From positions 1 through 32,242 of the forward strand of contig CANNKD010000011.1 of NCBI GenBank assembly GCA_947505205.1: a DNA stretch of 32,242 nucleotides, read 5' to 3'. Numbering within the stretch: position 1 is the first letter of the stretch; every line of letters starts with the position of its first letter. The position numbers were made by a program, and so were the translations under genes. Positions 771-17,640 of the stretch are shown here, one piece after another. This DNA comes from Bacteroidota bacterium (GTDB lineage: Bacteria; Bacteroidota; Bacteroidia; Bacteroidales; F082). A model generated the notes under the pieces. It ran no database searches, was not told the origin of the DNA, and saw nothing but the letters and a program-made list of their open reading frames with translations.

Positions 771-829
771 ATATTTGCTTCATTCGGGACAACGTGATAT
801 AGATAAATTGAAAGACTTGATTTTATTAC

Positions 830-1025
830 GTCCCTAACGGGACTTTGTACATAAACATAAAACACCTTCTACCGATATTACGTCCCTGACGGGACTGACA
901 ATTCGGTATAAATTCAGAAGCAAACAACTGGTATGAAAAAAATAATTCATTGTGAGATAGGCTGTCCCGTAGGGACAAAATATCGGTAGAAATAATAGAA
1001 ATTTGTATAAAAGTCCCGTAGGGAC
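830..1025. repeat. Upstream REP hairpin array (four hairpins)
   Basis: The hairpins are at 830-843 and 882-895 (forward, GTCCC-TAAC/TGAC-GGGAC) and at 964-976 and 1013-1025 (inverted form GTCCC-GTA-GGGAC). Start-to-start distances are 52, 82 and 49. Forward copies are preceded by TACCGATATTAC or a degraded form; inverted copies are followed by its complement or by GATATATTT. The last hairpin ends 17 bases before the transposase ATG and would lie in its leader RNA. Confidence 0.85.
867..992. repeat. 126-bp direct repeat, copy 1 (MITE-like, with terminal inverted hairpins)
   Basis: It matches 1652-1777 base for base at a constant offset of 785, with no indel and only about four to five differences. 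Each copy starts with TTCTACCGATATTACGTCCC and ends with the inverted complement of nearly the same sequence (GGGACAAAATATCGGTAGAA). The copy is therefore itself a small element with terminal inverted repeats of about 25-28 bp, each carrying a GTCCC/GGGAC hairpin. The middle 68 bases are non-palindromic. Confidence 0.9.
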
Positions 1026-1042
1026 GATATATTTTTAGCATT

Positions 1043-1531
1043 ATGGCAAACACCTATACGCAGATTCACATTCAGGCTGTATTTGCTGTTCAAAACAGGG
1101 ATTGTATCATCCACAATAGCTGGAAAGATGAACTGCACAAATATATCAGTGGAATAGTAAGTGGCAACAATCACAAGCTGTTAGCAATAAACAGCATGCC
1201 TGATCACATTCATATTCTATTCGGTCAACGACCTTCACAATCGTTATCCGATTTGATGCAGGATATAAAAGGTAGTTCTTCTAAATGGATAAATGAGCAG
1301 AAGCTGGTACGTGGAAGATTTTCATGGCAGGAAGGATATGGGGCGTTTTCGTACAGCAAGTCTGATATTCCAAACATTATTCAATATATTGTCAATCAAA
1401 CAGTTCATCACAAAAAGAAAACCTTCATGGAGGAATATTATGAAATGTTGAAGGAATTTGATGTTGATTATGACGACAGATTTGTGTTTAAACCGGTTGG
1501 TATTGGTGACATCCCTGACGACCCTTTGTAA
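1043..1531 (+). CDS. REP-associated tyrosine transposase (RAYT; IS200/Y1 family)
   Basis: A 162-residue single-domain Y1 nuclease, the usual length for the family. HUH enzymes nick single-stranded DNA through a tyrosine and a metal held by two histidines. The HUH motif is H55-I56-H57 in MPDHIHIL, and the likely catalytic tyrosine is Y115 in NIIQYIVNQ, placed as in IS200 enzymes. The GYGAFSYSKSDI segment before it is typical of Bacteroidota members. All key residues are present and the frame is intact, so it may be active. There is no IS605-type TnpB partner. The flanking hairpins are the expected substrates, which favours RAYT over a plain IS200. The hairpin at 1013-1025, close to the start codon, may affect its own expression (inference). 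Confidence 0.9.
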   Translation: MANTYTQIHIQAVFAVQNRDCIIHNSWKDELHKYISGIVSGNNHKLLAINSMPDHIHILFGQRPSQSLSDLMQDIKGSSSKWINEQKLVRGRFSWQEGYGAFSYSKSDIPNIIQYIVNQTVHHKKKTFMEEYYEMLKEFDVDYDDRFVFKPVGIGDIPDDPL

Positions 1532-1563
1532 TTACTTTAAAAATTTTGTTCAACCGATATTAC

Positions 1564-1812
1564 GTCCCTTACAGGACTTGGTAATATGATGTAAATTCAT
1601 TTCTACCAATATAACGTCCCTATGGGACTTTCATCTGATTGACGTTTTGTATTCTACCGATATTACGTCCCTGACGGGACTGACAATTCGATATAAATTC
1701 AGAAGCAAACAACTGGTATGAAAAAAATAATTCATTGTGAGATAGGCTGTCTCGTAGGGACAGAATATTGGTAGAAAATGAATAAAGAATTGATTTTAAG
1801 TCCCGTAGGGAC
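1564..1812. repeat. Downstream REP hairpin array (five hairpins)
   Basis: The hairpins are at 1564-1577 (one mispair), 1616-1628 and 1667-1680 (forward) and at 1749-1761 (one mispair) and 1800-1812 (inverted). Start-to-start distances are 52, 51, 82 and 51. The layout repeats that of the upstream array, with one extra forward unit. The last hairpin ends 40 bases before the GH30 start codon and is followed by the same GATATATTT seen before the transposase gene. Confidence 0.85.
1652..1777. repeat. 126-bp direct repeat, copy 2
   Basis: Second copy of 867-992, on the other side of the transposase gene. The differences are concentrated in the right terminal inverted repeat (GTCTCG for GTCCCG; GACAGAATATTGG for GACAAAATATCGG), which weakens that hairpin. 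Confidence 0.9.
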
Positions 1813-1852
1813 GATATATTTAATAATTATCCGGTTTTAACCTAAATGAATA

Positions 1853-3480: not shown

Positions 3481-5586
3481 TTAATGTTGTATAATCACCT
3501 TGCTTGTGCTTACAGCACTCTTCGATGAAACTGTGACGAAGTAAATGCCATTTTGTAAGTCAGCAGTTGAAATTCGTATTTCCTGACTATTGCTGAAAGA
3601 ATGATTCAATACCTCAAGATTGAAACGATTCGTGAAGCTAACATTGTATTGTTCTTCAGTTGGGTTATCAATTTTGATATTTACAATATCATTGGCAGGA
3701 TTTGGATAAACCACAGGTGCCAATGGTAAACACAATATATGAAATACAGCATCACTCATGTCAGAAATTGTCGAAGTGAGCGAACTATAAATTTTTACTT
3801 TATAATCACCTGCATCAACCAATGGGAATCCTGTAGTATTCCAAACATAAGTTGATCCTTCTACATTGTGTTGAATAACAGCATGTAAACTTCCGTCACT
3901 ATGCACCAAATCAATATCAACATTTTCTGGGAAGTTATCCTGCCACGATATTAAATAACTATTTCCAATATACCAATATTCACCACCATTTGGTTGGAGT
4001 ACGGTAATAACTCCATCAACAGGTGATGCTGTAATTGAAAAAGGATTCGCACTTATACCAACTATGGCAGCGTCTGCATGGCTAAAAACCTTAACTTCAT
4101 AATCTGCACCTTCAGCTGTGCCAATTGGAATATCCCAAACAAAGGTAGATCCCACAACGGAGGATTGGATGGTTGAAGCCAAAATCCCACCTTTATATAA
4201 TTTAATATCAACAGTTCCAGGAACATCATCAATCCAAGAAATCAGATAGGAATATCCTCTCAACCAATGAATTCCAGAAACGCTGGGTTGTAAAACTGTA
4301 ATACTTGCACCAGCTGGATTATCCTGTATTGAGAAATTATGGTCGCTAGCATCAACCAATCCGGCATCGTCATGACTATAAATTTTGACAATATAATCAC
4401 TTCCTGTAGCAGTACCTATTGGGATCGGCCATACATAGGTTGATCCACTTACATTTGAGGCAATCGTTGTTTCAGCAGCGGCGCCTTTCTTTAATTTGAT
4501 GTCAACCTTATTGGAAATATTATCTTCCCACGAAATAAGATAGGAAGATCCCCGAAGCCAGGTAATACCTGCTTCACTTGGTTGAACAACAAGAATACTA
4601 CCTCCTGCTGGTGATTCGTGAATGCCAAAGTTGTGATCACTTTCTCCATAAGAACTGTTGTCATCGTGACCACATACCCGAACTTTGAAATCATCTCCTT
4701 CGTCATTTCCAGCGGGTATTTCCCAATCATAAGTTGAACCTTCAACATCAAGGGCAATATTAGAATGATGTACACCACCTTTGTATAGTTTTACATCTTT
4801 GTGTCCTTCAATATCATCATTCCATGAAATATGGTAGGTATGACCTCTTTGCCAATCGATACCAGAACCACATGGTTGAATCATTGTTATATGACCGGAA
4901 CCTGCAGCTGCGATTGCGAAATTATTGTCACTGTCATCTTGTAATGCATCGCCTACAATCTGGGTTTGTACTCTTACCGAATAATTGCCTCCGGTTAGTA
5001 TTGAACCATCATTTAGAATAGTCCATAAAAATGTTGATCCTACCACGTTTTCTGCCAGAACGGAATGTTCAACTCCACCTTTATACAATTTAATTTTCAT
5101 AGTGCCGGGGAAATCGGTTGACCACGAAATCAGGTGAGAAGATCCTTTCTTCCAAGAAATGCCGGTTGTATTTGGTTGTTCAACATGGATAAAAGAGCCT
5201 GTTGCAGAAGCAACTAAAGAAAAATTGCTGTTGCTTTCATCGGAATAGCAACCGGGGCATGCTGCACTCGAAACCCGAATTTTGTAACAGTTTTTTAATG
5301 CCGTTCCTCCTGGAATTGCCCAACTATACGTAGAACCTTCTACTGAAAGAGCGATGTTGGTTACAACGGGTGATGCAGGAATGGTGTAATCAACCAAATC
5401 AATTCTACAAGGATAGATGAAATTATCTGTCCAGGAGATTAAATGGGTAGTACCAACAAGCCATTCGATGCTCGATTCGCTTGGTTGGATTACGGTAACT
5501 TGAGGCTGACCAATTGCACTAAAACTCAGTGCAAAAAAACTGGCTAAAAGAACCGTAAAATTGCGAAAATGTACGCGTGTTTTCAT
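3481..5586 (-). CDS. Secreted six-repeat Kre9/KNH-like protein with T9SS type A sorting domain
   Basis: A 701-residue protein. A signal peptide (about 1-26, ending SAIGQ) is followed by six beta-sandwich repeats of about 95 residues (roughly 29-125, 131-226, 232-322, 329-421, 427-519, 525-618). Each runs I-x-V-x-QP...W-x-x-G...YLISW-x-D(N/D), then V-x-I-x-L-y-k-G, GSTY-x-W-x-IP and Y-x-V-K-V. This pattern fits the Kre9/KNH (Ser-Thr-rich GPI-anchored-like) domain found in many bacterial surface proteins. Residues 622-701 are a T9SS type A sorting domain (VVYPNPANDIVNIKI ... NGIYFVTV ... SKVIIQH), so the protein is expected to cross the outer membrane by T9SS and be released or anchored. No catalytic motif is visible; an adhesin or surface-layer role is a guess. 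Paralogues follow at 5849 and 10480. Confidence 0.85.
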   Translation of the reverse strand: MKTRVHFRNFTVLLASFFALSFSAIGQPQVTVIQPSESSIEWLVGTTHLISWTDNFIYPCRIDLVDYTIPASPVVTNIALSVEGSTYSWAIPGGTALKNCYKIRVSSAACPGCYSDESNSNFSLVASATGSFIHVEQPNTTGISWKKGSSHLISWSTDFPGTMKIKLYKGGVEHSVLAENVVGSTFLWTILNDGSILTGGNYSVRVQTQIVGDALQDDSDNNFAIAAAGSGHITMIQPCGSGIDWQRGHTYHISWNDDIEGHKDVKLYKGGVHHSNIALDVEGSTYDWEIPAGNDEGDDFKVRVCGHDDNSSYGESDHNFGIHESPAGGSILVVQPSEAGITWLRGSSYLISWEDNISNKVDIKLKKGAAAETTIASNVSGSTYVWPIPIGTATGSDYIVKIYSHDDAGLVDASDHNFSIQDNPAGASITVLQPSVSGIHWLRGYSYLISWIDDVPGTVDIKLYKGGILASTIQSSVVGSTFVWDIPIGTAEGADYEVKVFSHADAAIVGISANPFSITASPVDGVITVLQPNGGEYWYIGNSYLISWQDNFPENVDIDLVHSDGSLHAVIQHNVEGSTYVWNTTGFPLVDAGDYKVKIYSSLTSTISDMSDAVFHILCLPLAPVVYPNPANDIVNIKIDNPTEEQYNVSFTNRFNLEVLNHSFSNSQEIRISTADLQNGIYFVTVSSKSAVSTSKVIIQH

Positions 5587-5794
5587 GATATTTTGTATAA
5601 GGTTTAATTTCTATTTCAAATAGAATTTTTTTCTTATAGAAGTGCAATCAAATATTAGGCCAATCATGTAAAACCTCTTAAAATGCCATTTCCTGTAAGG
5701 AAATTCAAGCAATGAAAACTCAAAATGATTTATGGTTTTTCCCAATTTGAAAAGAAAATTTCCAAAATCGGGAAAGCTTTTTTGGAGAAAGGGT

Positions 5795-5827
5795 AAAAAA
5801 AAACTCTGCTGAACATGAGCAGAGTTT
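5795..5827 (-). terminator. Intrinsic terminator after the 14-repeat gene
   Basis: A perfect 10-bp stem (AAACTCTGCT 5801-5810, AGCAGAGTTT 5818-5827) with a 7-base loop. A residues at 5795-5800 give the T tract on the minus strand. It lies 21 bases past the stop codon of the 1436-residue gene, so the next gene at 3481-5586 probably has its own promoter in 5587-5794. I found no clear TAnnTTTG box there. Confidence 0.85.
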
Positions 5828-5848
5828 TTATAAAGTACTTTTAATTGT

Positions 5849-8800
5849 TTAATGTTGAACAATTACTTTTTTAGTTATCACTGAATTATTCGATGTGATA
5901 GTCAGGAAATAAATACCATTTGATAATTCGGCGGTTGAAACATTAAGTTCCTTTAGTCCGTTCGTATTTAGTGTTCTTGACAATATTTGCATATTGAAAT
6001 GATCAGTGAATGTAAGTGTGTAATTTCCTGATAATTCCTCATTTAACTCAACCGAAACCGATTGGTTAGCAGGGTTAGGATATACAACAGCATTCAAAGC
6101 AGGTTCAACTATGGTGAAATAAGCGTTGCTCATATCAGTAATTGTACCTGTTTCAATGCTTGTGATTTTCACTTTGTATAGAATGCCAGCAGGTACGGTT
6201 CCATTATTTGGAATAGTCCATACATAACCTGAACTGAGTACATCATTTGCAATCAATGTTGTGGTTGCCGTCGCATCATTAACTAGATCTATTCTAAGGT
6301 TTTCAGAAATATTGTCATCCCATGAGATCAAATATGAATTTCCTTTAGTCCATGTTTCGCCACCATTTGGTTGAAGTACGGTAATAGTACCGTCAAAGGT
6401 GTAATCTGTTAGTGAAAATACATTTGCACTTTCGCCAAAAACAGAATGATCAGCATTACTATAAACTTTAATTTTATAATCAAGACCTTCTGGAGAAGTT
6501 GCGCTACTGAATGTATGTACTATTGTTGTTCCGCCAGAGTAATTTGTAATAACAGGATATTCTGTAGCAGGAGCACTTGTTCTGTAGTAAACAATATCAA
6601 CAGCACCGGGAATATTGTCATTCCATGAAAGTAAATAAGGCATATCACGGTACCAATGAATATTAGCAACATCAGGTTGTAATACATCGATTACATCAGC
6701 AGTGGTGTGATCTGAAATTGAGAAGGCATAGTCACTATCGTCCCATTCCTGATTATAAATAATCTTTATCACATACATGCCATCAGGATAAGTTCCGGCA
6801 ACGTCAGGGATTGACCAGGTATAGGTTGAACCTGAAGCACTTGCGCTGATATTTATTACAAATACGTCACCTGCATCCCATGAATCATTTAAGTTAGTGT
6901 CTTTATAAAGTTTAATAACAACATTATTTAATGGAATGTTATCTGTCCATGAAATCACATGAGATGTACCTCTTAACCACTCAATACCATCATCACTTGG
7001 TTGGATAACAACCATATCAGCCTGCGAAGGAGTATCGGTGATTTCGAAATATTCACTACTTAAACCTTGCACTCCATTTGCAGTGGTGCTTGTAATCAAT
7101 ATTTTATATTGACTTCCATTTGGCGTGCCACCCGGAATATGCCATGCATAAGTCGATCCTTCTACTGAAGCCGCTATGGCAGTTGAGTCATTTATCGTAT
7201 AATTGACGAGGTCAATTTTAACAGGAGAACCTAAGTTATCCGTCCATGAGATCAAATAATCCTGTCCTGATGTCCAGACTATACTTGGGGCAGAAGGCTG
7301 TATCAATTCAATGTCATAGGTGTTGGTGGCTGCATCTATTCTGAATTGGAAATCGCTGTAATCCAACACAGTTGTATAATCTAGAACACTGCTTACCCTC
7401 ACACTAAAATGATTTCCCATCTGGTGGTTGGTAGGTATTAACCATGAATAGGAAGTAGTTCCATCTGGAACACTTGCAGCTAAGATCGAATGAAATACTC
7501 CGGCATAGTAAAGGTCAACTCTTACAGGACCGGGAACATTATCTGTCCAGGTGATATTGTAAGAAGTTCCTAAGTTCCATCTGATACCTGGAGTGTTAGG
7601 TACAGTAACATGCGTAAATTGAGTTATCGTAAAATTGTTGTTGCTCATATCGGTTGAAGCATCGCCCGTATCAATGATTTTTATTTTGTAATCGTTTCCG
7701 ATAAGATAAATCCCACTGATTGTCCAAGACCACGAGTGACCAGAAACACCGGTAGCAAGTTGATCGTGATAAATTCCATTTTTCCATAATTCGATTGTGG
7801 AAGTACCTGATCCTTCTGACCATGTAATATTATAAGTGGAAGATGTGTACCAGCTTTCTCCGCCATTTGGTGAAGTCACAACAACAGGCTGCGTAATTCT
7901 GAAATTAGCATTACTAACATCAGAAGAAGCATCGCCTAAATCGAGGACTTTGATAATGTAGTTAGAGCCATTAGCAGTTGCACCAATAGTCCATAAATAT
8001 GATTGTCCAATCACGCCAGTTGTAATGTCATACACTTTTGTGTTTGTGCTGCTATTCCACAATTCGATTTTTGCGTTTGTTCCCGAACCTTCAGACCACG
8101 AAATAGTATGTGATTGTCCCGTTGCCCAGATTTCACTTCCATTGGGAGCTGTAACAACTACAGGTTGTGTAATTCTGAAATCAGCATTACTATTGTCAGC
8201 AGATAAATCGCCTAAATCGAATAGTTTGACAATATAGTCAGAACCATTTGCAGTAGCACCAATGTTCCAGGAATAAGAATGTCCAACCACGCCGGTTGTA
8301 ATGTCGTACACTTTCAAATTTGTATTACTATCCCACAATTCTATTTTTGTGTTTGTTCCGGAACCTTCAGTCCACGAAATTGTATGTGTTTGTCCGGTAG
8401 CCCAGATTTCATTTCCATTTGGTGAGGATACAACGATGGGTTGCGTAATTCTGAAATCAGCATTACTTACATCAGAAGAAGCATCACCCAAATCGAGGAC
8501 TTTGATAATATAGTCAGAACCATTTGCAGTTGCACCAATCGTCCATAAATATGATTGTCCAACCACGCCGGTTGTAATGTCATACACTTTTGTATTTGTA
8601 CTGCTATTCCATAATTCGATTTTTGCGTTTGTTCCCGAACCTTCAGACCACGAAATAGTATGTGATTGTCCGGTTGCCCAGATTTCACTTCCATTTGGAG
8701 CTGTTACAACTACAGGTTGCGTAATTCTGAAATTAGCATTACTAACATCAGAAGAAGCATCACCTAAATCGAGGACTTTGATAATATAGTCAGAACCATT

Positions 8801-10159
8801 TGCAGTTGCACCAATATTCCAGGAATAAGAATGTCCAGCCACGCCGGTTGTAATATCGTACACTTTCAGATTTGTATTACTATCCCACAATTCAATCTTT
8901 GTGTTTGTTCCAGCACCTTCAGTCCACGAAATCGTATGTGTTTGACCGGTTGCCCAGATTTCTCCACCATTCGGAGCACCTAAAACAATTGGAGCGGTAA
9001 TTCTAAAATCAGCGTTACTAAAGTCTGTGGAAGCGTCTCCGACATCGGTTATTTTTATTCTGTAATTAGATCCGGCAGGTATAGCGCCATTCAAAGTCCA
9101 TGAATATGGACTGGTAACTCCCGAAGCAATCGTTCCATATAAAGTTCCGCCGCTCGCAGAATACAACTGAATATTAACAGTGCCAGTGCCGTTTGACCAG
9201 GAAACGGTATGTGTTTGTCCTGTCGCCCAGATTTCTCCACCATTTGGTGCTGATAATACAACAGGTTCTGTGATTCTGAAATTAACATCACTTAGGTCAT
9301 TAATACCCGCATCATCGGAGCTTGAAACTCTGATTTTATATGTGCTGCCTAAAGCTTGCCCACCAGGAATGGACCAAGAATAACTTGTGCCAGCTACTGC
9401 CGTAGTGATGGAAGTATATGATGTTCCATCATATAGATCTATATCTACATTTCCCGGAATGTTATCGGTCCAGTCGATAGTGTGAGAGGTACCTCTATTC
9501 CAGATAACCGAAGTATTTGGCGTGGTAACAATTACAGATTGAGGAGTAATGGTAAACTGATCACTTTCGATCATTGGATCAGCACCTTGGGTTAACTGGA
9601 TTGTATAATCAGCTCCTGCAACCAAACTATTGCTAATAGACCAGAAAAATGGTGAAACTCCATCCGGGTCAGTACCTATCAAACTTTGCCATACACCATT
9701 TTTGTACAAATTAATAGAAACAGAAGTAAGTCCATCGCCACCAGACCATGTTATATTATGCGATGATCCACCCAGCCAGGAATCTCCTGAAATAGGGGAG
9801 GTAATAGAAATTGGATCATAAATGGTAAAATTAGCATCACTTACATCCCAAGGCCCAATATCATAGATTCCAACAGTATAATCATTTCCGGGTACCAGAC
9901 TATTACTGATCGTCCAGGGAAAGGGCGAACCAGCACTGGCATCGTTTCCTATAGAACCCAACGATACGCCATTTTTATAAAGGATAATTTCAATGTTTGC
10001 AACTTCATTTATCCATGTAATATTATGGGTAGATCCCTTTAACCATGATTCACCTCCGTTGGGAGATGTCAAGGTAAGTTGTGCTTTTGCACTGAAACTT
10101 GCAGCAATTAAAAAAACTGCCAGAAGTACAAGGTTTCGTAAGTGTAAAATTGTTTTCAT
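5849..10159 (-). CDS. Secreted 14-repeat Kre9/KNH-like protein with T9SS type A sorting domain
   Basis: A 1436-residue protein and the largest of three paralogues. The signal peptide is about 1-26 (LLAVFLIAASFSAKAQ). About fourteen beta-sandwich repeats follow: short 90-92-residue types (NGGE-x-W-x-x-G-x-THTISW ... S-x-W-x-I) between 27 and 846, then longer 93-104-residue types from 847 to 1352 that are close to those of the 798-residue paralogue. Residues 1356-1436 are the T9SS type A sorting domain (NAVVYPNPANQSVSVEL ... NGIYFLTITS ... KKVIVQH). Repeats 389-756 are four nearly identical 92-residue units from recent duplication. No enzyme motif was seen. The architecture suggests a long surface stalk or adhesin (inference). 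It has its own terminator and a 320-bp upstream gap, so it is probably a single-gene transcript. Confidence 0.85.
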   Translation of the reverse strand: MKTILHLRNLVLLAVFLIAASFSAKAQLTLTSPNGGESWLKGSTHNITWINEVANIEIILYKNGVSLGSIGNDASAGSPFPWTISNSLVPGNDYTVGIYDIGPWDVSDANFTIYDPISITSPISGDSWLGGSSHNITWSGGDGLTSVSINLYKNGVWQSLIGTDPDGVSPFFWSISNSLVAGADYTIQLTQGADPMIESDQFTITPQSVIVTTPNTSVIWNRGTSHTIDWTDNIPGNVDIDLYDGTSYTSITTAVAGTSYSWSIPGGQALGSTYKIRVSSSDDAGINDLSDVNFRITEPVVLSAPNGGEIWATGQTHTVSWSNGTGTVNIQLYSASGGTLYGTIASGVTSPYSWTLNGAIPAGSNYRIKITDVGDASTDFSNADFRITAPIVLGAPNGGEIWATGQTHTISWTEGAGTNTKIELWDSNTNLKVYDITTGVAGHSYSWNIGATANGSDYIIKVLDLGDASSDVSNANFRITQPVVVTAPNGSEIWATGQSHTISWSEGSGTNAKIELWNSSTNTKVYDITTGVVGQSYLWTIGATANGSDYIIKVLDLGDASSDVSNADFRITQPIVVSSPNGNEIWATGQTHTISWTEGSGTNTKIELWDSNTNLKVYDITTGVVGHSYSWNIGATANGSDYIVKLFDLGDLSADNSNADFRITQPVVVTAPNGSEIWATGQSHTISWSEGSGTNAKIELWNSSTNTKVYDITTGVIGQSYLWTIGATANGSNYIIKVLDLGDASSDVSNANFRITQPVVVTSPNGGESWYTSSTYNITWSEGSGTSTIELWKNGIYHDQLATGVSGHSWSWTISGIYLIGNDYKIKIIDTGDASTDMSNNNFTITQFTHVTVPNTPGIRWNLGTSYNITWTDNVPGPVRVDLYYAGVFHSILAASVPDGTTSYSWLIPTNHQMGNHFSVRVSSVLDYTTVLDYSDFQFRIDAATNTYDIELIQPSAPSIVWTSGQDYLISWTDNLGSPVKIDLVNYTINDSTAIAASVEGSTYAWHIPGGTPNGSQYKILITSTTANGVQGLSSEYFEITDTPSQADMVVIQPSDDGIEWLRGTSHVISWTDNIPLNNVVIKLYKDTNLNDSWDAGDVFVINISASASGSTYTWSIPDVAGTYPDGMYVIKIIYNQEWDDSDYAFSISDHTTADVIDVLQPDVANIHWYRDMPYLLSWNDNIPGAVDIVYYRTSAPATEYPVITNYSGGTTIVHTFSSATSPEGLDYKIKVYSNADHSVFGESANVFSLTDYTFDGTITVLQPNGGETWTKGNSYLISWDDNISENLRIDLVNDATATTTLIANDVLSSGYVWTIPNNGTVPAGILYKVKITSIETGTITDMSNAYFTIVEPALNAVVYPNPANQSVSVELNEELSGNYTLTFTDHFNMQILSRTLNTNGLKELNVSTAELSNGIYFLTITSNNSVITKKVIVQH
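7892..8995 (-). repeat. Four 276-bp tandem repeats arranged A-B-A'-B'
   Basis: This segment encodes residues 389-756 as four 92-residue units. Units 1 and 3 share IELWDSNTNLKVYDITTGV and GHSYSWNIG; units 2 and 4 share IELWNSSTNTKVYDITTGV and GQSYLWTIG. Alternate units match better than neighbours, so the likely history is a 276-bp duplication, divergence, then duplication of the 552-bp pair (8444-8995 against 7892-8443). The DNA is visibly near-identical at the 552-base offset. Confidence 0.9.
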
Positions 10160-10479
10160 ATAAAGTTTATTTATATTTTTTTAAAAAAATCAGCCGTAAA
10201 AATAACATAATTTGTTATTTAGATCAAGTATAAATAGAATTATTTTTAAAATAAAACTTGCTTTTTTATAAATAATTGATTACGAATTATATAAAATTGT
10301 ATGAAACGCTATGTATATTGTACCAAGTATGCTTGAATCCTTGATAAAGTGATTAATTTTCAAAATAAAGAAGCATAATATCTTTTGGGGAATACCTTAT
10401 TGGGGAAGTTAATACCCAAAAAAAAAGACCCCGCCACTTTCGTAACGGGGTCTTTTAAGTTGAAGGTAATCTTCAAATA
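10160..10479. other. Intergenic gap between two T9SS cargo genes
   Basis: A very AT-rich 320 bp. It should hold the promoter of the 14-repeat gene; the closest match to the -7 box on the minus strand is TATACTTG near 10220, one base off TAnnTTTG and weak. The end near 10420 holds the terminator of the upstream gene. No small ORF is convincing. Confidence 0.5.
10418..10456 (-). terminator. Intrinsic terminator after the seven-repeat gene
   Basis: An 11-bp stem (AAAAGACCCCG 10423-10433, CGGGGTCTTTT 10446-10456) with a 12-base loop and a run of A before it, giving a long T tract on the minus strand. It lies 23 bases past the stop codon. Confidence 0.88.
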
Positions 10480-12876
10480 TTAGTGTTGAATAATCACTTT
10501 ATGGGTTGTAACAGCACTTTTAGAAGCAACCGTTACGAAATAGATGCCTGAAGGAATGCCAACTGTGGAGATATGCAATTCCTGGCTGTTAGAGTATGAA
10601 CGATTCAATACTTCCATATTGAAACGGTTGGTGAAGGTAACCGTATATTGCTCTTCTGTTGGATTGTTTACCTGAATGTTAACCATATCTGTGGCAGGAT
10701 TTGGATATACAACGGCATTCAATGCAGGTTCAACTATAGTGAAATAAGCATTACTTAAGTCAGTGATTGTTCCGGTTTCCATACTAGTGATTTTAACTTT
10801 GTATAAAATACCTGCAGGAACAGTTGCATTTGTAGGAATAGTCCAATAATAAGCCGAACTTAAAACGTTGCTAGCAATCAAAGTTGTTGTTGCAGTGGCA
10901 TCGTTAACTAAATCTATTTGAACATTTTCTAAAATATTGTCATCCCATGAAATCAAATATACGGTTCCTTTGGTAAGGGTTTCGCCTCCATTAGGCTGTA
11001 GTACAGTTATAGTGCCGCCATAAGTGTAATCCGTAAGTGAAAACTCATTTGCGCTTGCGCTAACAACAACATGATCAGAATGACTATAAACTTTAACTTT
11101 ATAATGTGTCGATTCTGGTGTCGTACCATCATTAACTGGGAAAGTAAATACAGTGGTAGTTCCACTATTGAAATCAGAAACAATAGGATATTCCGTTCCT
11201 TCATCAGTTCTGTAATAAACTACATCAACCGAACCAGGAACGTTATCAATCCATGAAATTAGATAAGGTTGGCCTCTGTACCAGTGAATGCCAGCAACAT
11301 CAGGTTGTAATACATCTATTACATCAGTAGTGGTGTGGTCTGAGATTGAGAAGGCAAAATTGCTTACGTCAACAGCGTCGTTATAATAAATCTTCATTAG
11401 ATACATATCATCAGGATAGGTTGCAGGTACATCAGGAATTGTCCATGTGTAAGTTGATCCTGAAGCAGCTGCATTCACTGTTGCAACAAAGTCATCACCT
11501 GCATCCAAAACATCGTTCAAATTATCGTCAATATAGAGCTCAATTACAACATCATTTAATGGAATGTTATCAGTCCATGATATTAAATGTGATGTGCCTC
11601 TTAACCATTCAATGCCATTTACACTAGGTTGCTCAACAACCATATTTGCTTGATATGGAGTATCTGAAATTTCAAAATAATTGGAGCTTAAACCTTGAAC
11701 ACCATTTTCAGTTGTGCTTGTAACAAGTATTCTGTATTGGGTGCCATTTGGTGTCCCGTCTGGAATATGCCATGAGTAGGTTGAACCAACAATACCCGTT
11801 GCAATAATTGTAGAATCATTTAAGGTATAATTGATTAAGTCTATTTTAACAGGAGAATTGATATTGTCTGTCCAGGAGATGAGATAGTCTTCACCTGATG
11901 TCCAATGAATACCTGCGTCCGAAGGTTGTAATACGGTAATGTCATAAGTGTTAGTGGCAGCATCAATTCTGAATCGAAAATCGCTAAAATCAACAACAGT
12001 AGTAGGCTGAGCAATACTACTTACTTTTACCCTAAAGTGATTTCCCATTGCATGATTATTTGGAATAGTCCATGCAAAACTGTTTGTTCCGTCTGGCACA
12101 CTTGCAGATAATACTTCATGTAATGTATTGTCTATATAAAGGTCAACTTTTACAGGGCCGGGAACATTATCAGTCCAGGTAATAGTATTTAGGCTTCCTA
12201 AATTCCAGCTAATACCAGGTGTGGTAGGTACGGTAACATGAATAGTCTGAAGAATTGTGAAGTTTGTGTTACTTTGATCTGTAGATCCATCAAGTGCATC
12301 AGTAACTTGGATTTTGTAATCAGAATCACTCAATGGAGTTGAAATTGTCCAAGAATAAGGGCTTGTAGCAGCACCATTAATAACACCTAGATCTACACCA
12401 CCTTTAAATAACCTAATTTCAGCTGTACCTGTTCCACCAGTCCAAGTTATAGTATGAGTATTTGATAAATTTTCCCAGATAACGCCAGTGTTAGGAGAAG
12501 TTACAACTACAGGAGCAGTAATTCTAAAATCAGTATCACTTTGGTCAAAAATAAGATTTTCTGTTACTTCAACTTTATAATCTGCACCTTGCTCAGCGGT
12601 AACTGGAATTATCCAAGTTAAAGTTCTATCTTCCTCACCTGTACCGGTATAAATTGTTTCCTCTAAAGCACCGTTTTTTAAAAGCACAATACTTTTTGCA
12701 TATCCAGCTGCAACAAAATCAGCCGACCAAGTGACAGTTAAATTTGTGCCATAGGAGTAAATTCCTCCGCCGTTTGGCGTAGCGACAGTCACAGTGAATG
12801 CCCTAGCACCAAAACTCATTGCAATCGAGAAAACTGCGAGAAGTACAAGGTTTCGTAATTGTAAAATCATTTTCAT
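10480..12876 (-). CDS. Secreted seven-repeat Kre9/KNH-like protein with T9SS type A sorting domain
   Basis: A 798-residue protein. The signal peptide is about 1-26 (LLAVFSIAMSFGARA). Seven repeats lie at roughly 27-119, 120-208, 209-304, 311-404, 411-512, 517-615 and 620-715. Residues 719-798 are the T9SS type A sorting domain (NAVVYPNPATDMVNIQV ... GIYFVTVASKS ... KVIIQH). Repeats 209-715 follow residues 847-1352 of the 14-repeat paralogue closely (for example DAATNTYDI and LNDSW/LNDVLDAGD), but the sorting domain after PNPA is much closer to that of the six-repeat paralogue (NPTEEQY, FTNRFN, SNSQE), so the gene looks mosaic. It starts 49 bp after the stop of the Trp-repeat gene on the same strand, and the two may share a transcript. 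Function is unknown; a surface or adhesive role is inferred. Confidence 0.85.
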   Translation of the reverse strand: MKMILQLRNLVLLAVFSIAMSFGARAFTVTVATPNGGGIYSYGTNLTVTWSADFVAAGYAKSIVLLKNGALEETIYTGTGEEDRTLTWIIPVTAEQGADYKVEVTENLIFDQSDTDFRITAPVVVTSPNTGVIWENLSNTHTITWTGGTGTAEIRLFKGGVDLGVINGAATSPYSWTISTPLSDSDYKIQVTDALDGSTDQSNTNFTILQTIHVTVPTTPGISWNLGSLNTITWTDNVPGPVKVDLYIDNTLHEVLSASVPDGTNSFAWTIPNNHAMGNHFRVKVSSIAQPTTVVDFSDFRFRIDAATNTYDITVLQPSDAGIHWTSGEDYLISWTDNINSPVKIDLINYTLNDSTIIATGIVGSTYSWHIPDGTPNGTQYRILVTSTTENGVQGLSSNYFEISDTPYQANMVVEQPSVNGIEWLRGTSHLISWTDNIPLNDVVIELYIDDNLNDVLDAGDDFVATVNAAASGSTYTWTIPDVPATYPDDMYLMKIYYNDAVDVSNFAFSISDHTTTDVIDVLQPDVAGIHWYRGQPYLISWIDNVPGSVDVVYYRTDEGTEYPIVSDFNSGTTTVFTFPVNDGTTPESTHYKVKVYSHSDHVVVSASANEFSLTDYTYGGTITVLQPNGGETLTKGTVYLISWDDNILENVQIDLVNDATATTTLIASNVLSSAYYWTIPTNATVPAGILYKVKITSMETGTITDLSNAYFTIVEPALNAVVYPNPATDMVNIQVNNPTEEQYTVTFTNRFNMEVLNRSYSNSQELHISTVGIPSGIYFVTVASKSAVTTHKVIIQH

Positions 12877-15939: not shown

Positions 15940-16776
15940 TTAACATGACTTACAACCGCAGCCTGAAATAGGTTTCTCTGCATAAACCGTGATGCTGTAA
16001 ATTCCTATCTCATCGACTTTAAACTGTTGCAAAGTCTCTGGTTTTAAATATTTTAACAATATCTCATCGGGAACAACAATTTCTTTTTCCTTTGAAACTT
16101 TGATATTCGAAAGGTATGCATTTTCCATCATTTTCAGGTATTCCAATTTTGGGACAGCGCCTGAAACGCATCCGGCATACATTTCTGCGGCTTCCTGAAT
16201 TTCTTTTGGGAGATTCCCTTTGATCACAACATCGGATACAGATAAATGTCCGCCCGGCTTAAGTACGCGGTATATTTCTTTAAAAGCTTTTTGTTTGTCA
16301 GGGACAAGGTTAAGCACGCAGTTACTGATGATTACATCTGCTTTGTTGGCCGTGATCGGCATATTCTCGATGTCGCCCAAACGAAAACTGACATTCTCAT
16401 ATCCCAACTTTTTGACGTTTTCCTGTGCCTTTACAATCATGGCAGGTGTGAAATCGATCCCGATTACAGTTCCGGTATCACCAACCAACGAACGGGCGAC
16501 GAAGCAATCATTCCCGGCTCCGGAGCCCAGATCTATTACGGTATCGCCGATTTTTATCTGTGCAAATTCAGTCGGTATGCCACAACCCAGACCCAGATCT
16601 GCATCGGAATCATATCCCGATAAATGATTGTAGTCTTCGCTGAAAATAGTGTAGTCAGTGCCGCAGCATGACGAGGTGGCACCGCAACAGGAGCTCTCGT
16701 TCATTTCTTTTGTCTGATTTGCGATGATAGAATATTTCTCGCGAACCATTTCCTTTAGTTTTTCTTGATTTTCCAT
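15940..16776 (-). CDS. arsM: Arsenite S-adenosylmethionine methyltransferase ArsM
   Basis: A 278-residue class I SAM methyltransferase that methylates As(III), giving methylarsenicals that can leave the cell. The SAM-binding motif is DLGSGAGND (82-90), with GIDFTPAMI (106-114) after it. The three cysteines that hold arsenic in ArsM are present: C65 in GLGCG, C153 in SNCVLNL and C203 in AGCVSG. Extra cysteine pairs occur at 30-31 and 37-38, with a CGCKSC tail (273-278), often seen in ArsM and possibly binding metal. It is third in an arsR-arsC-arsM order, 67 bp after arsC. Length is typical. Confidence 0.95.
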   Translation of the reverse strand: MENQEKLKEMVREKYSIIANQTKEMNESSCCGATSSCCGTDYTIFSEDYNHLSGYDSDADLGLGCGIPTEFAQIKIGDTVIDLGSGAGNDCFVARSLVGDTGTVIGIDFTPAMIVKAQENVKKLGYENVSFRLGDIENMPITANKADVIISNCVLNLVPDKQKAFKEIYRVLKPGGHLSVSDVVIKGNLPKEIQEAAEMYAGCVSGAVPKLEYLKMMENAYLSNIKVSKEKEIVVPDEILLKYLKPETLQQFKVDEIGIYSITVYAEKPISGCGCKSC

Positions 16777-16843
16777 AGTATTTAGGATTAAAGTATTAAA
16801 ATGTAGTGGATACCGAATTTGAATTTATATATAATTTTAGACG

Positions 16844-17293
16844 TTAGGTATTTATATAATTGTCAATTGTCAATTGTCCATTGTTTATTTGTTTGTAAAA
16901 GATATAAAAGTCGTTCTTGATCTGATCTCGGATGGTGCGGTAAACGTTGAGGATTTCATCATCAGTGCCGGTTGCATCAGCCGGATCGGTAAAACCAATA
17001 TGGATATGTTTGTTCACTTTTCCTGTGAAGATAGGACAGATTTCTTTGGCATGATCGCAAACAGTGATCACTATATCAAAGTTTTCATTTTGGAAAACAG
17101 CAATATGTGATGGTCTTTGCCGGCTGATGTCGATGAATGATTCTTTCATAACGCTGACGGCGAATCGGTTAACTTCCTTTTCCGGTTTTGTGCCTGCCGA
17201 ATATACTTCCAGTCTTGGATCAAATGACCGTAAAAATCCTTCTGCCATTTGACTTCTGCATGAATTTCCGGTACAAATAATGAGTATTTTCAT
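16844..17293 (-). CDS. arsC: Arsenate reductase ArsC, thioredoxin-coupled (LMW-PTP fold)
   Basis: A 149-residue protein from ATG at 17293, which overlaps the arsR stop as ATGA; a longer frame starting inside arsR is less likely. It reduces arsenate to arsenite using thioredoxin. The phosphatase-like P-loop is C7-TGNSC-R13, the two further redox cysteines are C79 and C86 (seven apart, as C82/C89 in the S. aureus enzyme), and the DPAD loop is at 103-106. The family normally ends near residue 135. The last dozen or so residues (NNGQLTIDNYINT) are encoded largely by an ATTGTCA tandem repeat, so the native stop seems to have been lost to an intergenic repeat. The product, arsenite, is the substrate for the downstream ArsM. 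Confidence 0.94.
   Translation of the reverse strand: MKILIICTGNSCRSQMAEGFLRSFDPRLEVYSAGTKPEKEVNRFAVSVMKESFIDISRQRPSHIAVFQNENFDIVITVCDHAKEICPIFTGKVNKHIHIGFTDPADATGTDDEILNVYRTIRDQIKNDFYIFYKQINNGQLTIDNYINT
16859..16883. repeat. 7-bp tandem repeat (ATTGTCA) within the 3' end of arsC
   Basis: About three and a half units of ATTGTCA, the last with one change (ATTGTCC). It encodes the unusual C-terminal tail of ArsC. Such CAATTGT-type repeats are usually intergenic in Bacteroidota (recalled, not checked). Confidence 0.7.
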
Positions 17294-17622
17294 TGTGTGC
17301 AGCAATTATTATTCTCGTTGCAGGAACAGCGAAAGAAATCGCTAAAAAGTTCTTGTATGGTTGCAATGCGTTTAAGATCAATACAGTAATTTACTTTTAC
17401 GCCATCGATTTCACCTTTGATAAAACCAAGTTTCTTCAATTCCTGCAGATGTTGTGACACCGTACTGCGGCTCAGAGGAATTTCATTTGAGATATCACCC
17501 GAGATGCAACTGTTAGCCGAGGCCAGAAATCGCAGGATCGAAATACGGGCAGGATGCGACAAGGCTTTGGCGAATGCAGCCAATTCCTGGTCTTTTGCTG
17601 AGAATTTTTCTTTTTTTAACAT
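17290..17622 (-). CDS. arsR: ArsR-family metalloregulator
   Basis: A 110-residue winged-helix repressor from ATG at 17622 (a TTG one codon earlier is ignored). The helix-turn-helix spans about 43-66 (ISNEIPLSRSTVSQHLQELKKLG), preceded by KALSHPARISILRFL typical of the family. The classic E. coli ELCVCDL site in the DNA-binding helix is absent. Cysteines instead occur at 39 and in a C-terminal cluster (C99, C101, C107, C108), a different As(III) site of the kind seen in other ArsR branches. It is the first gene of the ars operon and overlaps arsC by 4 bp. It probably represses its own promoter at 17641-17671 until arsenite binds. Confidence 0.93.
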   Translation of the reverse strand: MLKKEKFSAKDQELAAFAKALSHPARISILRFLASANSCISGDISNEIPLSRSTVSQHLQELKKLGFIKGEIDGVKVNYCIDLKRIATIQELFSDFFRCSCNENNNCCTQ

Positions 17623-17640
17623 CAATTATGATTTATGACG

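Follow-up and report, generated by a model that had tools for sequence, protein, structure and literature searches.

The window analysed here, a 32,242-nucleotide stretch from a member of the Bacteroidota (GenBank assembly GCA_947505205.1, contig CANNKD010000011.1), contains a small transposase gene, tnpA, in the spacer between two genes that Pfam assigns to SusD and GH30. No other open reading frame (ORF) of at least 90 amino acids lies in this spacer. tnpA is surrounded by nine short hairpins and a pair of long direct repeats (Table 1), and we examined this gene-and-hairpin element, its relatives in other Bacteroidota and the transposition system that it might represent.

The transposase gene and its flanking modules

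The 162-residue product of tnpA matches the Pfam Y1 transposase family (PF01797, E 2.5e-27), and its PDB and Pfam sequence matches are IS200-type transposases. It scores above the NCBIfam cut-off for the IS200 family (68.5, cut-off 55) and below that for REP_Tyr_transpos, the family associated with repetitive extragenic palindromes (REPs; 42.7, cut-off 80). The same two models matched 25/25 (IS200, E ≤0.001) and 23/25 (REP-associated) members of an alignment of such proteins (A1). The motifs of the protein, DHIH, WQ and YIVNQTVHH, agree with those given for TnpA-Y1 subclass 1.2 (Y---Q--HH, DH[IV]H and WQ; Quentin 2018, PMC6006769), to which we assign the enzyme by this motif signature. A first-pass annotation of the DNA had placed a REP-associated tyrosine transposase (RAYT) gene between the repeats. 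The gene does encode a Y1 single-strand transposase, but membership of the RAYT family (class 2 TnpAREP) is ruled out by YIVNQTVHH in place of Y---NP and by the sub-threshold REP_Tyr_transpos score.

We scanned 112 proteins with regular expressions: those of 80 homologue loci from named genomes (the best 80 of 566 confirmed stretches, not a random sample of the phylum), of 29 loci of a first set and of three loci of the host genome, including the window's. Y---Q--H[H/R] was found in 106; four had Y---Q only, one had neither, and one (L128) read Y---NP, in a match whose length is not divisible by three and which is probably out of frame. The HUH and WQ expressions were both present in 100/112, an agreement that is expected because the homologues were picked by similarity. 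Against four relatives at 69–78% protein identity, the proportion of differing nonsynonymous sites (pN) was 0.12–0.19 and that of synonymous sites (pS) 0.77–0.83, which is near saturation, and this contrast indicates that tnpA has been under long purifying selection.

The direct repeats on either side of tnpA are 126 bp long, correspond at a constant offset of 785 bases without an indel and are equal at 122 of 126 positions (97%), as the first-pass annotation had proposed; the four differences argue against a duplicate made by assembly. Also in agreement with that annotation, each copy has 21-nt inverted ends (867–887 and 971–991 in the left copy, 90% complementary) that bear GTCCC/GGGAC hairpins. 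The sequence GTCCCNNNNGGGAC, with at most one mismatch, occurs four times in the window compared with a mean of 0.29 over 100 shuffles, none of which reached four, so the repeat hairpins are not due to chance. The 97%-identity block starts with a TTCTACC tag and ends with a GGTAGAAA tag. However, the similarity extends beyond the 126 bp originally delimited: the repeats form the cores of two larger palindromic modules, each with four hairpins, which are 85% identical over 215 aligned columns. Their alignment is a mosaic in which the cores and the outer hairpins agree and the linkers between them are largely unrelated. Folded as single-stranded DNA (ssDNA), each module forms a single long nested hairpin, with a stability equalled by 0/200 shuffles.

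At the locus, the elementary unit consists of a GC-rich stem of 5 bp capped by a GTA/GT(N)A-type loop, followed by nine nucleotides (of the GAAATATTG type) and the tag RTAG. Depending on the strand this reads hairpin-N9-GTAG or CTAC-N9-hairpin, and two outward-facing units (CTAC-N9-hairpin ... hairpin-N9-GTAG) make up a palindromic REPIN-like module, the 126-bp repeats being the cores of two of these. Each has two inverted REP units and a spacer that can fold as a hairpin, as in a REPIN or a bacterial interspersed mosaic element (BIME), and the BIME/REPIN-like hairpin pairs recognized at first reading on both sides of the gene are thus upheld by the hairpin anatomy and the module folds. Separately, each core contains an 18-codon open frame (933–989 and 1718–1774) whose stop is the TAG of the GTAG tag; this is probably a chance occurrence.

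We built a covariance model of the unit, R1, from 51 four-nucleotide-loop units of homologue loci other than the window. Only such units were used because the MAFFT alignment (A2) placed the gap of three-nucleotide loops at the 5' end, and three-nucleotide-loop units may therefore score lower. R1 gave nine matches in the window, eight with E ≤0.002 and one with E 0.15, and all nine are the hairpins.

Table 1 Features of the tnpA locus, with positions in the window
Feature	Position	Strand	Basis or remark
Interval missing from congeneric loci	771–1845		SusD/GH30 spacer comparison with G001 (L157) and G003 (L156); ends approximate
Left module, H1–H4	824–1034		85% to 1610–1821; ssDNA fold z −8.5
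Hairpin H1	830–843	-	R1 match 824–843
Left 126-bp core, TTCTACC ... GGTAGAAA	867–992	+	Repeat alignment
Hairpin H2; CTAC tag 869–872, nine nt off	882–895	-	R1 match 863–898, 41.4 bits
Hairpin H3; GTAG tag 986–989, nine nt off	964–976	+	R1 match 961–995, 38.5 bits
Hairpin H4, directly 5' of tnpA	1013–1025	+	R1 match 1010–1044
tnpA, Y1 HUH transposase, 162 aa, DHIH / WQ / Y---Q--HH	1043–1531	+	Pfam Y1_Tnp 2.5e-27; NCBIfam; alignment A1
Hairpin H5, one mismatched pair	1564–1577	-	R1 match 1545–1580; 3' end of block common to L028 and L075
Right module, H6–H9	1610–1821		85% to left module; fold z −7.0
Hairpin H6	1616–1628	-	R1 match 1597–1631
Right 126-bp core	1652–1777	+	Repeat alignment
Hairpin H7; CTAC tag 1654–1657	1667–1680	-	R1 match 1648–1683, 44.2 bits
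Hairpin H8, one T.G in stem; GTAG tag 1771–1774	1749–1761	+	R1 match 1746–1780
Hairpin H9	1800–1812	+	R1 match 1797–1827, weak, E 0.15

Hairpins and tags beside related genes

Subclass 1.2 homologues are strongly linked to hairpins in many Bacteroidota. Defining a hairpin as a 5-bp stem with at least three G/C and a 3–4-nt loop, we counted 374 in the 61,306 bases that lie no more than 400 bp from the gene (6.10/kb) and 168 in 200,390 bases beyond 1.5 kb (0.84/kb), a control that is mostly coding DNA, so that part of the excess could reflect intergenic composition. Among the 77 loci with both flanks, a hairpin lay close upstream in 52, close downstream in 57 and on both sides in 41; for 2680 random placements these figures were 7.9%, 8.9% and 0.7%. 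Many loci have two hairpins upstream, at about −80 and −30, and inverted ones downstream. Upstream of the gene the loops are most often GTA/GTTA, and downstream TAAC/TAC. For the tag analysis we kept the 268 of 374 units that have GT(N)A-type loops and full flanks (106 were dropped), and GTAG stood nine bases 3' of the hairpin in 102 of them and RTAG in 134, compared with 2 and 6 at the next-best offset. Intergenic composition explains neither this tag nor the loop polarity. The GT[AG]G expected at the 5' foot of a RAYT-type hairpin was not found in the 268 units, whose left flank is A-rich and motifless.

The first set of loci gave a similar picture: 24 of 32 (the 29 loci and the three of the host) had a repeated stem reached by at most 1/100 first-order random sequences, and eight did not, one of which (L055) is short of flank. 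R1 matched 21 of the 29 (56 matches at E ≤0.05), always within 400 bp of the gene, a zone that comprises 21,467 of the 89,132 bases searched; one of these genes (L038) is identical to that of a training locus (L132). Across 149 genomes R1 matched 66, including 51/88 with the gene and 15/61 without it (p = 6e-5, an optimistic value since the genomes are related and the test ignores phylogeny). With a stricter threshold for the gene, units occurred in 40/57 genomes that have it and 26/92 that lack it. Furthermore, among the 98 of 111 loci with hairpins, stem similarity between nearest protein neighbours was 0.548 compared with a permuted value of 0.231 (0/1000 permutations), as would be expected if gene and hairpins travel together. 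Covariation with the tag reached z 3.2 and 3.9 at two of three stem positions, values that relatedness alone could give.

The placement of the gene between long repeats is recurrent as well. Of the 80 loci, 61 have flanks long enough to be searched for direct repeats of at least 60 bp between the upstream 600 and downstream 900 bases. Such repeats were found in 20 of these 61 and in 2 of 134 controls, which shows that members of this gene family repeatedly occur in a unit-gene-unit arrangement; a looser flank requirement gave 33/105. The first-pass annotation had taken two near-identical long units around the gene to suggest either a composite mobile element or a very recent duplication. A unit on each side of such a gene is not unusual, however, as these loci show and as Nunvar 2010 (PMC2817692) reports: BIME-2 elements border the E. 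coli rayt on either side, and a third of the RAYTs in that study are in direct association with a BIME. We also considered repeat borders at the tags as a general rule and rejected it, because the 32 repeat pairs are mixed, ending at hairpins, tags or neither.

According to the 2018 survey of these transposases, subclass 1.2 is low in copy number and generally does not have the terminal secondary structure typical of IS200, and the survey's table lists no REP for it (PMC6006769). The loci described here do not fit a listing without REP association, and a search of the open-licence literature, of limited depth, returned no description of a hairpin link for this subclass.

Insertion site, dispersed copies and interpretation

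The window copy looks like an insertion. In congener G001 just 67 nt separate the SusD- and GH30-type genes (by ORF reading), a spacer that holds a terminator-like hairpin and no tnpA; congener G003 has a different, 23S-rRNA-IVP-like ORF (at 1027–1413 of its locus) in this spacer and likewise no tnpA, and in a third congener, G002, the locus is cut by a contig end. The spacers of three genomes of the same family (G015, G028 and G021) measure 86, 0 and 23 nt, and R1 found no unit in eight other GH30 loci (L156–L163; L158 without its upstream part). A second array of the host, 5' of a gene that we take to be gyrB-like, is also missing from G001, G002 and G003, and G002 carries a different small element with terminal inverted repeats (TIRs) there instead. 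Because the congeners have diverged, the ends of the window insertion are approximate. With that limit, neither a target duplication nor a TIR above chance was found between 706–829 and 1813–1852, where the longest direct and inverted matches were reached by 281/500 and 479/500 shuffles, and self-comparison gave no outer TIR around the window insertion (691–1870) or around the host array on contig C16. Among the matches listed, the closest proteins are outside the genus, in G136, of another family (77%), and in L075 and L076, metagenome-assembled genomes named to phylum or order (78%), whereas those of the three congeners are at most 50% identical. This distribution makes horizontal movement of the element likely.

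Within the host assembly (288 contigs, 95% complete) the Y1 gene family comprises three paralogues (100, 55 and 45% identity), and no near-identical further copy of the kind expected for IS200/IS605 was found in this incomplete assembly. The full 126-bp unit occurs only as its two copies, plus three partial matches. Nevertheless, arrays of related hairpins were found at four further sites, so that, as with RAYTs, the palindromic units beside the gene (nine hairpins here) recur in the genome. The pattern GTCCCN{3,4}GGGACNNWAT has 19 sites in the assembly (control 0): seven at the window locus, eleven in the arrays (on C16, C125 and twice on C32) and one beside the paralogue on C208. In the arrays the order is that of the window locus, the hairpins follow one another at intervals of roughly 50 nt, and the central tags, some of them degenerate, are of the TACC/GGTA type. 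Hairpins with different stems accompany the third paralogue (C240). Among plasmids, 20 records have homologues (the best at 51.7%, Bernardetia), and nothing in these records bears on the window element. The first-pass annotation had suggested a search for the 126-bp unit and for empty sites in relatives, and held that a unit found nowhere else, in an arrangement fixed in all related strains, would speak against a mobile element. The outcome was divided: the assembly contains no further copy of the whole unit, but the arrangement is missing from the relatives that we examined, and empty SusD–GH30 sites do exist.

Arrays in several other genomes lie inside elements with TIRs and target-site duplications (TSDs), that is, miniature inverted-repeat transposable elements (MITEs). 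G055 has seven arrays (L177–L183) in elements of about 225 bp with the TIR CACTGTTGTCCGG, of which six could be delimited and five of these have exact 9-bp duplications. A 753-bp element of G072 includes a Y1 gene with an internal stop and has the TIR GGCTAATTCCTATTTTGA and an 8-bp duplication; the middle of the Y1 gene is gone from its shorter copies (L203, L204 and L206), and L203 has a 7-bp duplication. In G026 the same TIR occurs at 46 sites (control 0); two of the copies there extend over the whole gene and are 88% alike, one of them having an internal stop, and there are also shorter internal-deletion copies and one delimited copy without a duplication. The elements of G042 (L212–L214) are 160 bp long; two of the three could be delimited, and these have TTA and TCA duplications. 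The host arrays on C32 (L025/L026) are enclosed by elements of 304 and 318 bp that each have a 3-bp duplication, which in AT-rich DNA can be chance. Since members of IS200/IS605 make no larger duplications (PMC2817692), the TIR/TSD-bounded copies were most likely moved by DDE transposases, and other transposases besides the Y1 enzyme may spread the hairpin arrays. As an aside, in both G072 (L205 compared with L203 and L204) and G026 (L198 compared with L200 and L201) the internal-deletion derivatives are situated elsewhere in the genome than the fuller copy, whose ends they match at up to 98% identity.

Together, the anatomy of the locus, the linkage of hairpins and gene, the agreement between hairpin and protein relatedness and the absence at congeneric sites are best accounted for by a REPtron-like system: the locus is probably a subclass 1.2 Y1/HUH gene among copies of its cognate REP-like hairpins. 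By analogy with the TnpAREP enzymes of E. coli, Stenotrophomonas and Marinomonas, in which GTAG is important for cutting at CT or CA beside the hairpin, as are loop bases in two of the three (PMC8266576), we hypothesize that the window enzyme would bind the hairpin on ssDNA through its loop and stem, with the RTAG tag (CTAC on the other strand) placed in the active site and cut there by Tyr115. A tag-to-tag module might then be released as ssDNA, by excision or by copying, and be joined to another site or to a module nearby. The unit-gene-unit layout could have arisen when a circle of the gene and one module inserted at a resident module, or by local module copying.

Several observations weigh against this explanation. 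The unit count in the host genome is low (12 model and 19 pattern hits), 37/88 genomes with the gene show no unit, and units are present in the 15/61 genomes without a detected gene, G046 alone having 27 copies; because only 46 first-look candidates were scored per genome, copy numbers are lower bounds. None of the eight left-flank positions tested for tag covariation exceeded z 1.6, and repeat borders meet the tags in the window but not regularly elsewhere. Some dispersed arrays are placed in TIR/TSD MITEs, a type of element that a Y1 enzyme would not produce, and to these points come the mostly coding control and the optimistic p-values noted above.

These MITEs raise the alternative that DDE transposases spread the arrays as cargo, with the Y1 gene as a passenger. 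The 9-bp (5/6 in G055), 8- and 7-bp (G072) and 3-bp duplications (2/2 in G042 and at two host sites; none at the one delimited G026 copy) and the many G026 TIR sites fit, but four TIR families share one type of hairpin-tag unit, for which separate entry of the units is the easier explanation, and the units accompany the Y1 gene at a preferred spacing and polarity. Moreover, self-comparison shows no outer TIR around the window insertion or the C16 array, the flank repeats are no longer than in shuffles and the 3-bp duplications can be chance, so we consider this unlikely. Similarly improbable is a plain autonomous IS200-like insertion sequence (IS) at about 964–1628, with H3–H4 as its left end, H5–H6 as its right end and the outer hairpins as leftovers of an earlier insertion or tandem duplication. 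It would explain the block common to L028 and L075 (963/964–1577; shorter or longer with four other loci), the upstream pair and inverted downstream hairpins of many loci, and the whole-gene and deleted copies in G026. However, the assembly has a single copy of the gene, the other two being 55% and 45% paralogues, the TIRs and duplications of G026 and G072 belong to another transposon type, and the solo host arrays face outward rather than forming a left and a right end.

The composite mobile element suggested by the first-pass annotation, in which unit-gene-unit moves as one transposon, would account for the direct repeats on both sides and for congener sites lacking the element. We found no evidence in its support: no second unit-gene-unit copy was found in the assembly, the cores do not bound the missing interval, since H1 and H9 lie outside them, and the candidate flank duplication is no better than in shuffles, with ends that are approximate. 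We therefore regard it as quite improbable. Least credible of all, and very improbable, is that the hairpins function in RNA, as regulators or terminators of the SusD–GH30 region, as their intergenic position and stable folds might suggest; the window has no Rfam match at gathering thresholds, like units lie beside the Y1 gene family in many other genomes, and 7/7 related GH30 loci with upstream sequence lack the hairpins.

The REPtron-like reading has a wider form, for and against which we see the evidence as evenly balanced: the enzymes of subclass 1.2 may be dedicated to a REP system that is widespread in Bacteroidota and was overlooked by earlier surveys for lack of a 5' GTAG, having instead a GT(N)A loop and RTAG at +9; its modules would have a second route of spread as cargo of at least four TIR/TSD MITE families. 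The 2018 survey left subclass 1.2 as an IS200-like group lacking IS or REP features (PMC6006769). Hairpin and tag now provide a defined candidate substrate beside many of its genes, so that activity is directly testable. If true, this proposal would extend REP association beyond class 2 to a second Y1 lineage and would explain palindromic arrays between Bacteroidota genes.

Elsewhere in the window, three large repeat proteins, alike by eye, are encoded on the minus strand at 3481–12876. The one scanned (1436 aa) contains nine Ig stretches that are Kre9/KNH-like, as well as a tail for secretion sorting, and 276-bp DNA tandem repeats lie at 7803–9299. The minus strand at 15940–17625 encodes an ArsR-type regulator, a low-molecular-weight phosphatase family protein and a methyltransferase with CC motifs, presumably an arsenic cluster with ArsM.

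Comparison with known systems

The window protein resembles IS200/IS605 transposases in its NCBIfam IS200 score and in having hairpins on both sides, and differs from them in its multi-hairpin arrays, in the lack of near-identical further copies in the assembly and in the absence of a second ORF of at least 90 aa from the spacer. With subclass 1.2 it shares Y---Q--HH, DHIH, WQ, low gene copy number and occurrence in Bacteroidetes; in contrast to that subclass as surveyed in PMC6006769, many of the homologues here have hairpins nearby. Several arrays resemble DDE-transposon MITEs in lying inside TIR/TSD elements, whereas no such ends were recognized at the window insertion. RepRanger 2025 (PMC12306157) tabulates Flavobacterium REPs, in a main text without the words 'transposase' or 'RAYT'.

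TIRtrons (Di Nocera 2013, PMC3733652) also have a Y1 gene flanked by inverted repeats, some of them double-palindromic, but their TIRYT enzymes were described for RAYT-like proteins and are discussed under subclass 2.1 in PMC6006769. The GGGGWSAS motif is absent from 771–1845, which argues against placing the locus in this group. REPs tagged with CGTC likewise occur in Bacteroidetes, with no known transposase according to the same 2013 paper; in ACGTCCC of the window the GTC is part of the stem, and the units are therefore not classed with them.

Most similar overall are the RAYT/TnpAREP REPtrons of E. coli, Pseudomonas and Stenotrophomonas, which also have a single Y1 gene among inverted palindromes, with units elsewhere in the genome and modules that fold as one long hairpin (PMC2817692; REPINs, PMC3116915). 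Unlike RAYTs, which are class 2 (Y---NP), the window protein is class 1 (Y---Q--HH), the copy number is low, and the hairpin is followed after 9 nt by the tag (on the opposite strand, CTAC precedes it by 9 nt), whereas in RAYT systems GTAG stands at or near the 5' foot. The Marinomonas unit, which has its GTAG 5' of the stem (PMC8266576), is closest in shape among these systems, with a 5-bp stem and a TTTA loop.
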